From contig CAJOEW010000003.1 in NCBI GenBank assembly GCA_905233525.1, positions 1 through 47,974 of the forward strand: a DNA stretch of 47,974 nt, given 5' to 3'. Position numbers and translations under genes: made by a program. This DNA comes from an uncultured Synergistales bacterium. Lineage in GTDB: Bacteria > Synergistota > Synergistia > Synergistales > Aminobacteriaceae. A model generated the notes under the pieces. The model was not told the origin of the DNA and did no database searches. It saw only the letters and a program-made list of their open reading frames with translations. Shown piece by piece: positions 43,565-47,974 of this stretch (its first letter is position 1; the number at the start of each line of letters is the position of its first letter).

Positions 43565-44845
43565 CTATAAATAAATTCCTCTGATGTCTACAACGTCAGC
43601 CACGCGCTTAATTGCACATACATACGCCGAACGTCTCATCGTGATTTTCTTATCTGCCGCTAAATCCCAGACCTTACGGAAATTACTTGTCATTAAGCTT
43701 ACAAGTCTTTCGTTATAATCTTCTTCAGTCCAAGGGAATCCCTGAAGGTTTTGCGCCCATTCGAAATAAGATCCGATAACGCCGCCGGCATTTGCTAAGA
43801 AATCAGGAACAACAATAACTCCCGCATCGTCTAAAATCTTTTCAGCTTCAGGTGTCGTCGGGCTGTTAGCACCTTCAAAAACGTATTTAGCTTTTAATTT
43901 GCCTGCTGTATTTTCATTTATTACGGCCTGATTCGCGCAAGGAATGAAGAAATCACAATCAAGTCCGATCAGATCTTCATCAGGGATTTTTTCGCAGTTC
44001 TCATTCTCAAATCCTGCGAGCTTACGGCCTTTATGTTTAGGATCTCTGTTGATATATTCAAAAGCCTTTTCAACGTCAATACCATTCGGATTATAATACG
44101 CGCCTGAAGTATCACTTATGCCGACGATCTTTACTCCTGCATCCTGTAAAATCGAAGCCGTATAACTTCCAACGTTACCAAATCCCTGGACAACAGCTTT
44201 CATTTTTGTAGGATCGATTCCTTTTACGCGCATTAACTCTGTAACGCATGCTGCAACTCCGCGTCCGGTGGCTTCTGTTCTGCCGGCTGCTCCCCAATAA
44301 CCTACAGGCTTACCAGTTAACAAAGCAGGCTCAAAATGTCCCATCATTCTGCAAATCGTGTCCATGATCCAGACCATTTCCTGACCGCCGGTATACATAT
44401 CAGGTGCAGGAATATCGCTCCAACGTCCAATAATAGGAGCAATACGGGCACCGAACGTTCTTGACATACGCTCTTTCTCTTTAATCGTTAATTTCGTAGG
44501 ATCACAGCAAATTCCGCCTTTACCGCCGCCGTAAGGAATACCAGCGAGCGAACATTTCCACGTCATTAACATAGCAAGGCCCTCACATTCAGCACCGGTA
44601 ACATCAAGCGCGTAACGGATACCGCCTTTCGAAGGACCTAACGCTGTCGAGTGCTGAACTCTGTATCCCTTGAAGACTTCGACTGAACCGTCTTCCATTT
44701 CGACCGGTACTGATACATCTATTCTGCGCTCTGAATTGCTAAGTATAGAAACTAATTTCTCATCAAGTCCCATGTAATCGGCTGCGTCATAAAAATCGCT
44801 TAATGCCGTGCTGAGAATAACATTATCTGATGTACGTCTTGCCAT
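43565..44845 (-). CDS. gdhA: Glutamate dehydrogenase (Glu/Leu/Phe/Val family)
   Basis: 426 residues, the small hexameric NAD-type length. GYRVQHSTALGPSKGGIRY, the catalytic-Lys block AGIPYGGGKGGI, PAPDMYTGGQEM, the Rossmann loop VVQGFGNVGSYTA, and ANAGGVIGSYFEW near the C-terminus. Interconverts glutamate and 2-oxoglutarate with ammonia; in amino acid fermenters it usually runs oxidatively. AAGGTG lies 9 bases before the ATG. A 25-base near-palindrome (GTGC...GCAC, 44877-44901) lies just upstream and could be an operator. Next to argC, which links glutamate supply to arginine synthesis. Confidence 0.93.
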   Translation of the reverse strand: MARRTSDNVILSTALSDFYDAADYMGLDEKLVSILSNSERRIDVSVPVEMEDGSVEVFKGYRVQHSTALGPSKGGIRYALDVTGAECEGLAMLMTWKCSLAGIPYGGGKGGICCDPTKLTIKEKERMSRTFGARIAPIIGRWSDIPAPDMYTGGQEMVWIMDTICRMMGHFEPALLTGKPVGYWGAAGRTEATGRGVAACVTELMRVKGIDPTKMKAVVQGFGNVGSYTASILQDAGVKIVGISDTSGAYYNPNGIDVEKAFEYINRDPKHKGRKLAGFENENCEKIPDEDLIGLDCDFFIPCANQAVINENTAGKLKAKYVFEGANSPTTPEAEKILDDAGVIVVPDFLANAGGVIGSYFEWAQNLQGFPWTEEDYNERLVSLMTSNFRKVWDLAADKKITMRRSAYVCAIKRVADVVDIRGIYL

Positions 44846-45091: not shown

Positions 45092-45133
45092 TTTTTTAAC
45101 TTTACTTTAAAAATTTTAGGGAGGTCATCCATT

Positions 45134-47467
45134 TTGAGACGTTTCATTTTTGCGCTTCTGCTTGTTTTCGCAATTATGGGTACTGCGTTCGCTGAAGACG
45201 CTGCACCTGTTGTTGATGCAGGCGGTTGGAAATTCGATAAGCCTATTAAAATTATATGTCCGTGGGGAGAGGGCGGCGGTGCTGACAGTACATTAAGGGC
45301 GCTTGCTCCATTACTTGAGAAATTTTTAGGACAAAAGGTCGAGATCCAAAATATAACAGGTTCAAACGGCGGTAACGGTGCTATGTTTGCAAAAGAACAG
45401 CCGGCGGACGGTTATACGTTTTTACTTGGAACACAGAGCTTATTTATTCAGGAGATCGTCGGAGAACTACCTTTAAAATTCCGTGATGAGTTTGTGCCTG
45501 TCGCTAAACTTGTTCACGCGATTAACATCATAGCTGCTTCACGTAACGCAATGAACGAACGCGGTTATAAGAATTTTGCAGAGCTTCGCGATTTTGTAAA
45601 AGCCCATCCGTATAGTATTTCGGTCGGTATGCTTACGAGAACAGGTCTTGACAGTTTAGCGCTGAAACAAGCTACAGAGGGATTAAATTTCTTAGAAGTC
45701 GCTTATCCTTCTGGTGCAGGTATGAATGACGCTCTCGCTACAGGCCAGATCGATTTAATGATCACCGGTACAAATGAAATTGAAAGCTTAATCGACAGCG
45801 GAACCGTTGTGCCTTTATTAGTGCTTTCAGAAAAGAGAATGAACCGTTATCCTTCGATTGAGTGTTCAAAAGAATTAGGCATTAACGCTTCGTTAGGTGC
45901 TGCACGCGGAATTTATGCCAGAAAAGGAACGCCTGAAGGTGCCGTAAAAGCAATGCTTAACGCGATTGAGCAAGCTGTAAACACTCAAGAATGGAAGGAC
46001 TTTTTACAAAAAGGCGGTTATGATGAGAGACCGAGCTTCGCAAAAGCTGATGAGTTCACGAAAGAAATTAACGATGAGTATTCAGCATTCACAGCTCTTT
46101 TAAAACCAGCGCCGGCCAAAAAAGACGCAAAACCAGCTCCGTCAACTCCTCAAAAATTGGCGTTAATCGGCTTCATAATGGTGGCTGTGTTGATTTTCTG
46201 CTTAATCAGAAAGGTCGTAATACCGCCTGTAGCATTTATATTATTACCGACGATCGCAGCTTTAATTGCCGGATTTGATCCTTTGACTGTAAATAAATTC
46301 GCTGCCTCTGGTATATCAAAAATGGTTTCGACGGTTTCATTATTTGTATTCTCGATCTCATTCTTCTCGTTAATGAATGATGTAGGAGTATTTGATCCGA
46401 TCGTTAACGCTTTGATCAAGAAGGCCGGAACAAGTATTGTATTGATATTCTTAGCTACGGCAGCAGTCGGTATCATTGGACATCTTGACGGATCAGGAGC
46501 AACGACATTTATTATTACGATTACGGCCATGCTTCCGTTATTCAACAGCTTAAAAATGGATAAGCGCGCTTTAATGTTACTTGTCTGCGTTGCAATCGGC
46601 GTTATGAATGTTTGTCCTTGGGGCGGTCCTACAATGAGAGCTGCTACAGTTCTTGAGACGGATCCTAATAATTTATGGCATAAGCTTTTACCGGTTCAGG
46701 GTGTAATGCTTGTAACGACGTTTGTTGTAGCGTTTTTATTAAGCCAGATTGAAAGACATCGTCAGAAAAAATTAGGTCTAACGGCTGAAACTCCTGCTGT
46801 AGCTGTTGAGAATGCTGCTGATGATAAAGCTGACGCTATGAAAAATATTGCAGGCTGGAAAAAAGTATTTAACGCGCTTCTTGTAATTGCGGTAGTAGCT
46901 GCTTTGATGTTTACGAAATTCAATCCTGCTTACGTGTTCATGATCGCATTAGCTTTCGCATTACTTGTTAATATTTCAAGCCTCAAAGAACAGAACAAGA
47001 AATTAAAAGAGTACGGCGTGGCAGCTATGGCAATGGTTGTAACGTTATTCTCTGCCGGAATTTTCACAGGTGTTTTAAGCGGTACAGGAATGCTTAACGC
47101 AATGGCTTCAGCTGTTGTTACAGTTATTCCTCCTGCAATGGGAAGATATACGCATATAATCGTGGCATGTTTCGCAGTTCCGTTAATTATGTGTTTAGGC
47201 ACGGACTCATTCTATTTTGGATTATTACCTGTCGTTGTAGGTATTTCCTCACAATTCGGCGTTAATCCTATGGACGTGGCCTGTGTGTTGCTCGTAGCGG
47301 AAAATGTCGGCGTTATGATTTCTCCGTTATCACCAGCGGCTTATTTAGGTTTAGGATTGCTTGAAATCGATGTAGGCGAACATATTAAATATTCATTGCC
47401 TTGGATTTGGGGAATCAGTATCCTTTCGATCGCTGCGTGCATACTTTTAGGAGTGGCTCCGCTGTAG
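45134..47467 (+). CDS. Fusion of a TctC-type binding protein to a CitMHS carrier
   Basis: 777 residues in one frame. Signal peptide 1-21 (MRRFIFALLLVFAIMGTAFA). Residues about 30-320 are a TctC/Bug-type tricarboxylate-binding domain (IKIICPWGEGGGADSTLRAL, NITGSNGGNGAMF, PADGYTFLLGT, VAYPSGAGMNDALATGQIDL). A Pro/Ala/Lys linker (KPAPAKKDAKPAPSTP) leads to a CitMHS citrate-metal carrier (about 338-777; TM1 LALIGFIMVAVLIFCLIRK, GHLDGSGATTFIITI, NVCPWGGPTMRAATVLE, CLGTDSFYFGLLPVV, ISPLSPAAYLGLG). The binding domain is outside and TM1 enters with basic residues inside, which fits CitMHS topology. Likely takes up citrate or a related acid, with the receptor tethered to the carrier. TTG start behind GGGAGG. 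Confidence 0.87.
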   Translation: MRRFIFALLLVFAIMGTAFAEDAAPVVDAGGWKFDKPIKIICPWGEGGGADSTLRALAPLLEKFLGQKVEIQNITGSNGGNGAMFAKEQPADGYTFLLGTQSLFIQEIVGELPLKFRDEFVPVAKLVHAINIIAASRNAMNERGYKNFAELRDFVKAHPYSISVGMLTRTGLDSLALKQATEGLNFLEVAYPSGAGMNDALATGQIDLMITGTNEIESLIDSGTVVPLLVLSEKRMNRYPSIECSKELGINASLGAARGIYARKGTPEGAVKAMLNAIEQAVNTQEWKDFLQKGGYDERPSFAKADEFTKEINDEYSAFTALLKPAPAKKDAKPAPSTPQKLALIGFIMVAVLIFCLIRKVVIPPVAFILLPTIAALIAGFDPLTVNKFAASGISKMVSTVSLFVFSISFFSLMNDVGVFDPIVNALIKKAGTSIVLIFLATAAVGIIGHLDGSGATTFIITITAMLPLFNSLKMDKRALMLLVCVAIGVMNVCPWGGPTMRAATVLETDPNNLWHKLLPVQGVMLVTTFVVAFLLSQIERHRQKKLGLTAETPAVAVENAADDKADAMKNIAGWKKVFNALLVIAVVAALMFTKFNPAYVFMIALAFALLVNISSLKEQNKKLKEYGVAAMAMVVTLFSAGIFTGVLSGTGMLNAMASAVVTVIPPAMGRYTHIIVACFAVPLIMCLGTDSFYFGLLPVVVGISSQFGVNPMDVACVLLVAENVGVMISPLSPAAYLGLGLLEIDVGEHIKYSLPWIWGISILSIAACILLGVAPL

Positions 47468-47547: not shown

Positions 47548-47974
47548 ATGCGAAAGATTTTTTGTGCAGTTCTGTTTGTATTTTTAATGCCTGTTTGTGT
47601 TTATTGCGCTGAGTCCGGTGAAAGCGGCAATGAAAAATATTTACGTCAAGATGTTTTTGAAGCCAGAATGGAAGCTCTTAGATCTGATATGCGTTTAGAA
47701 CATGGAAGGCTTGATAATAAGATTGATATTTTGCGTTCTGACAGTGATAAAAAATTTGATGCAATACTTTCAGAGCTCAAGCTGTTAAACATTAAGCTCG
47801 AAAATTTGAACACGAAGATCGATAACGTTCAGCAAAATTTAGAGGACAAAATTACAGCGCTTGATAACAAACTTGAAAGTAAGATCGCGGCTCTTGATAA
47901 CAAGCTTGAAAATAAGATCGCGGCTCTTGATAACAAGCTTGAAAGTAAGCTCGCAGCTCTTGATAATAAGCTTG
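47548..47974 (+). CDS. Exported coiled-coil protein with 11-residue repeats (cut by window edge)
   Basis: 142 residues are visible; the end lies outside. Signal peptide 1-22 (MRKIFCAVLFVFLMPVCVYC, then AE). From residue 30 on the sequence is a continuous charged helix with Leu/Ile at regular spacing. From residue 104 it becomes near-perfect 11-residue repeats (ALDNKLESKIA). Hendecad repeats favour right-handed or straight coiled coils, as in surface stalks and membrane-shaping proteins. AAAGGAG is 8 bases before the ATG. No family assigned. Confidence 0.75.
   Translation, partial: MRKIFCAVLFVFLMPVCVYCAESGESGNEKYLRQDVFEARMEALRSDMRLEHGRLDNKIDILRSDSDKKFDAILSELKLLNIKLENLNTKIDNVQQNLEDKITALDNKLESKIAALDNKLENKIAALDNKLESKLAALDNKL
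47857..47974 (+). repeat. 33-bp tandem repeats inside the coiled-coil gene
   Basis: Units at 47857-47889, 47890-47922 and 47923-47955 and a partial unit to the window edge, each encoding ALDNKLE-[SN]-K-[IL]-A with only a few base changes. The low divergence between units suggests recent duplication, so copy number may vary between strains. Confidence 0.85.

Follow-up and report, generated by a model that had tools for sequence, protein, structure and literature searches.

The first secondary carrier outside the TRAP and TTT families described as dependent on a substrate-binding protein (SBP) is TAXI-GltS, reported in 2025 and including natural single-chain fusions; examples are BP0403/BP0402 of Bordetella pertussis and the fused forms of Lachnospiraceae (PMC12344293). 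Its authors proposed that coupling to an SBP is made possible by the elevator mechanism of the carrier, and called for further classes of such carriers on which to test this (PMC12344293). TctC proteins bind many different carboxylates and share a pincer signature, P-F-x-A-G-G-x-x-D; signalling roles are suspected for them where TctA is missing, and a review left open whether orphan receptors serve other classes of carrier (PMC5812351). In C. glutamicum, both TctABC and CitH, a receptor-free carrier of the CitMHS family, are proven citrate importers (PMC3353115), so joining a TctC receptor to a CitMHS carrier makes biochemical sense.

We analysed a 47,974-nucleotide stretch of DNA (the window) from an uncultured Synergistales bacterium (contig CAJOEW010000003.1), which carries such a fusion in a single gene. 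In a whole-genome search, the fusion was present in 32 of 43 genomes from the rumen Synergistaceae genus to which the window belongs, full length in 30 and cut by a contig end in two. We found no report of a TctC–CitMHS pair or fusion in open-access PMC papers. The sequence-only reading of the locus had suggested a possible new receptor-fused transporter type, with higher affinity or altered directionality; the pairing of TctC with CitMHS is new, whereas the principle was preceded by TAXI-GltS (PMC12344293), so that the novelty is a new family pairing within an SBP–secondary carrier principle already known.

Like TAXI-GltS, the fusion joins a TRAP/TTT-like SBP, N-terminal when fused, to a carrier that normally works alone; in both, the carrier is of the elevator type, a small Q/TctB subunit is lacking and dependence on the SBP is a proposal. 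Unlike TAXI-GltS, in which a TAXI receptor is combined with GltS, a glutamate carrier of the ESS family, the domains here are TctC/Bug and CitMHS, and the host belongs to a different phylum. With TctCBA (TTT, TC 2.A.80) the fusion shares the receptor family, its nearest relative being the SBP of a tctCBA-citDEF operon of the same genus, but neither TctA nor TctB is found in the protein or adjoining it, and the carrier comes from another family. With the CitMHS citrate-metal:H+ symporters (TC 2.A.11; CitH) it shares the carrier half, which passes the citMHS cut-off and spans the whole model; in contrast to the known, receptor-free members, it has a secreted receptor ahead of its first helix. 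TRAP SiaPQM is also a receptor-fed secondary transporter, and its M subunit aligns to the whole length of the carrier half; the fusion, however, has no DctP/TAXI receptor and no Q subunit, and falls below the dctM cut-off. In GlnPQ-type ABC importers, too, a binding domain is tethered to the membrane part in a single chain, but these are ATP-driven and their membrane domain is unrelated to that of the fusion.

The fusion is a case in point both for the question left open by the TctC review (PMC5812351) and for the further classes called for by the authors of TAXI-GltS (PMC12344293). Since the CitMHS family has receptor-free members that are good citrate transporters, the effect of a receptor could be measured on one carrier by truncation.

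Organization of the fusion protein

The fusion gene (45134..47467, plus strand, as are all features of it given below) is one intact open reading frame of 777 aa with a TTG start and a TAG stop, and is preceded by a ribosome-binding site, GGAGG (45120..45124), 9 bp 5′ of the TTG. Nearly all genomes start the gene with GTG or TTG, and there is one clear ATG only; for this tally the most upstream in-frame start was taken in most of the 23 loci (window 45134, L038-L060). Such starts may hold translation of the fusion low.

The protein begins with a predicted signal peptide, MRRFIFALLLVFAIMGTAFA (45134..45193), which has an Arg-Arg n-region, a hydrophobic core (hydropathy peak at aa 4-22) and an A-x-A site, and is conserved among the fusions. 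It is followed by a TctC/Bug substrate-binding domain (aa 35-322; 45236..46099), matching Pfam PF03401 (TctC) at E 1e-22 over aa 55-321; among solved structures, the best sequence matches of this part are TctC/Bug proteins (phmmer, E 1.6e-25). The segment PWGEGGGAD (45260..45286) corresponds to the TctC carboxylate ‘pincer’ signature (PMC5812351) and has its P, both G and its D, the four positions that are strongly conserved; P43, G47, G48 and D51 of this loop are at least 90% conserved in the fusions. A Pro/Ala/Lys-rich linker, LKPAPAKKDAKPAPSTPQK (aa 323-341; 46100..46156), whose length varies among fusions while its charge is kept, leads into the CitMHS carrier domain (aa 342-777; 46157..47464), so that 340 residues of secreted receptor portion stand ahead of the first CitMHS helix.

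The identity of the carrier half is clear from family models. It matches PF03600 (CitMHS) at E 5e-21 and NCBIfam TIGR00784 (citMHS) at E 2.5e-84, with 284 bits against a curated cut-off of 259.7 bits and over positions 2-427 of the 431 of the model, which places it in the CitMHS family (TC 2.A.11). The segment GHLDGSGATTF (46478..46510) is near-invariant and is predicted from the structural model to form the re-entrant hairpin of repeat 1; its GHLDG and both Thr are invariant even when the Clostridium carrier is included. A TctA identity, under which the idea of an unusual transporter would have fallen, is ruled out by family models and fold, and Pfam gives no TctA match; a TctB match is likewise lacking within the chain (Pfam), and no TctB lies beside the gene. 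Nor is the carrier half a TRAP DctM, as TIGR00786 gives 20.7 bits against a cut-off of 268.45; a weak, partial Pfam DctM match (32.5 bits) is explained by the shared superfamily.

We built an AlphaFold model from 23 sequences, which is of moderate confidence (pLDDT 69.8, pTM 0.47). Its N part takes the TctC/Bug fold (Z 30.9 to 5oei and 30.4 to BugE, 2dvz), in agreement with PF03401, making this half, at a fold match of Z about 31, a TctC-type receptor as used in TTT systems. The C part takes the DASS/TRAP-M fold (Z 28.5 to human NaS1 and 23.6 to VcINDY; Z 25.5 to TRAP SiaM, 7qha_B, with model residues 342-776 against chain residues 1-416). The linker region (aa 323-343) has pLDDT below 50 and is disordered in the model. 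The order of parts proposed from the sequence, a signal peptide, TctC, a Pro/Ala/Lys linker and a full CitMHS carrier in one frame, is thus borne out by PF03401, PF03600, TIGR00784 and the model folds.

The first CitMHS helix most likely begins on the periplasmic side, the same side as the secreted receptor, because VcINDY aligns to the carrier half only from its residue 37, past its own first helix; the Lys/Arg-rich central loop (aa 537-576), which falls on the cytoplasmic side, supports this placement. Positive-inside counts near the first helix give a signal that is confounded by the Lys-rich linker itself. The DASS/TRAP-M fold is that of known elevator carriers, and the predicted fold suggests an elevator motion for the carrier half. 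In one chain, the protein joins a secreted SBP to a secondary carrier with the elevator-type fold of the IT superfamily.

Genomic context and a probable link to citrate

Of the separate TctC proteins, the closest (about 54% identity) are encoded first in tctC-tctB-tctA-citD-citE-citF operons of the same genus (L067, L068), where TctA, TctB and TctC were confirmed by Pfam. The gene citF is present in 38 of the 43 genomes of the genus. In the window genome, CitF (alpha subunit of citrate lyase, TIGR01584) and CitD (acyl carrier protein) score above NCBIfam cut-offs, while the beta subunit has citE as its best match but stays under the citE cut-off; the citDEF genes are accompanied there by a diverged TctC (43%) without TctAB, and the only TctA of this genome sits on another contig. 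Standalone CitMHS relatives adjoin citrate lyase genes in four other Synergistales genomes (L074, L076, L085, L086). This context suggests that citrate is taken up to supply citrate lyase.

In six sister genomes (G007, G012, G014, G015, G020, G035) we found no 54% TctC, nor, in the stretch read around citDEF, any transporter; their TctA genes are located elsewhere, and all six carry the fusion. A strict either/or between the fusion and citrate tctCBA was not seen: 24 of the 32 fusion genomes also hold a TctC of about 54%, which means that the fusion does not everywhere stand alone as a citrate system. In the neighbourhoods read, the fusion gene itself never adjoins citDEF.

Unfused neighbours of the same two families are rare, being limited to one Synergistaceae genome and one plasmid. 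In the former (G003), which lacks the fusion, a CitMHS gene is followed after 15 bp by an unfused TctC gene, TctAB being absent alongside, and citDEF is present without tctCBA beside it. On a Roseomonas mucosa plasmid a TctC adjoins CitMHS; this could be chance, TctC genes being so common there, and a TctC neighbour is lacking at four further annotated CitMHS genes on plasmids. Receptors of the citrate-type tctCBA lineage are thus seen with a CitMHS partner in fused as well as unfused (G003) form.

Accessory genes were sought around the fusion and rejected. A downstream M48-type peptidase (14 of 24 loci) and upstream aspartate-family biosynthesis genes are inconstant and look unrelated. Upstream neighbours in the window are a divergent glutamate dehydrogenase gene (43565..44845, minus strand), which lies outside the system and is replaced by a different neighbour in other genomes, an ArgC-like semialdehyde dehydrogenase and ArgJ.

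From the parts of the fusion, their order, conservation and context, we infer its ligand, coupling, direction and need for the receptor. Probably, the protein is a one-chain secondary importer that depends on its binding protein and most likely takes up citrate, perhaps as a metal complex. The signal peptide would export the TctC domain to the periplasm, where the domain would bind citrate by closing its conserved PWGEGGGAD loop over a carboxylate group. A flexible tether, the linker of some 20 residues, would hold the receptor to the first CitMHS helix and thereby keep it over its own carrier. The receptor would then pass citrate to the outward-facing carrier, whose elevator stroke, powered by a cation gradient, would bring the citrate into the cell, the chain having no TctB/DctQ-like small subunit. 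The imported citrate would feed citrate lyase CitDEF, encoded elsewhere in the genome. The likeliest advantage of the fusion would be a higher affinity where citrate is scarce, as has been argued for TAXI-GltS. Chances seem even for the broader proposal that a CitMHS carrier has become dependent on a tethered TctC, forming a third SBP-dependent secondary lineage beside TRAP/TTT and TAXI-GltS, and, in this genus, takes the place of TctAB alongside the citrate receptor.

The importer may instead be fed by its receptor with another carboxylate, such as citramalate, tricarballylate, malate or a C5 acid. Some CitMHS relatives adjoin CoA-transferase/HMG-CoA-lyase-like genes (L063, L077, Roseomonas) rather than citrate lyase, and the TctC family is versatile in the carboxylates that it binds (PMC5812351). 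We consider another ligand not very likely, as the nearest separate TctC belongs to tctCBA-citDEF operons and the fusion persists where the 54%-type tctCBA is gone but citDEF is kept.

It is also conceivable that the carrier is self-sufficient, as other CitMHS proteins are, with the TctC domain sensing, gating or binding without delivering. CitMHS carriers such as C. glutamicum CitH move citrate without a receptor (PMC3353115), so the fused carrier might do without its TctC part, and the suspected signalling by TctC proteins where TctA is absent (PMC5812351) would suit such a role. However, the domain is complete, its pincer signature is preserved and purifying selection acts on it throughout the genus, and an unfused CitMHS/TctC pair also exists (G003), which makes a carrier independent of its receptor distinctly unlikely.

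Distribution, conservation and origin

The fusions are about 70-75% identical end to end and contain no internal stops; one genome of the genus has two copies. Contigs with names belong to Synergistaceae or ‘Fretibacterium’ MAGs, mostly from goat, sheep and red deer gut. Whole-genome search found the fusion absent from 140 other Synergistales genomes, and our GTDB contig scan for fusions covers close relatives only. It was not found in the 72,556 plasmids searched, where the sole record to cover at least 80% of the query at a single site does so with two adjacent, unfused genes, nor in the viral contigs searched.

Over 22 fusions, median dN/dS was lowest in the carrier (0.07), against 0.13 in the TctC part and 0.12 in the linker. 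Both halves are under strong purifying selection. These values also bear on whether the linker is cleaved after export into a free receptor and a separate carrier, as its disorder in the model would permit; with no processing signal seen in the sequence, the fusion intact in 32 genomes and a linker dN/dS of about 0.12, such cleavage is highly improbable. That an assembly or frame artefact joins two genes is practically inconceivable and is refuted by the independent assemblies carrying the fusion: every sequence does come from MAGs or draft genomes, but 32 genomes, many from independent goat, sheep and red deer assemblies, share the same junction, with no stops and with both halves under selection. 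The case in which the fusion would be private to one genome, with a stop between its parts, is likewise contradicted by its presence in 32 of 43 genomes without such a stop.

The fusions group together in trees of both halves, with support of 100/100 for the TctC half and of 99, in a quick tree, for the CitMHS half. As the fusions are monophyletic in both, each half has a single origin, and the most economical history is one joining event, in which a TctC of the citrate-type tctCBA lineage would have become attached to a CitMHS carrier.

Several other genes were noted in these genomes. The open reading frame downstream of the fusion in the window (47549-47973) encodes a secreted coiled-coil protein with KLESKIAALDN-type repeats and runs off the end of the window; small frames for secreted coiled-coil proteins of a similar kind occur at L065:4719-5417 and L113:2988-3422. 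In many sister genomes the gene 3′ of the fusion encodes a small secreted HExxH protein, M48-peptidase-like (L047:6164-6796 and similar loci). An orphan TctC with 49% identity to the fusion receptor (L083:5594-6592) lies without adjoining TctAB or CitMHS in a genome (G092) that lacks the fusion. The diverged TctC proteins at citDEF (L065:3402-4577, G000:C48; L069:3612-4805) have two consecutive signal-peptide-like stretches with a WKFE-like motif after each, which resembles a duplication of the N-terminus. The window genome also encodes secreted proteins of 910 aa (L070:3903-6635, G000:C10) and 607 aa (L071:4133-5956, G000:C25), in which two or three TctC-like stretches stand in tandem with Lys/Pro/Ala/Glu-rich linkers between them; neither protein has a carrier domain.
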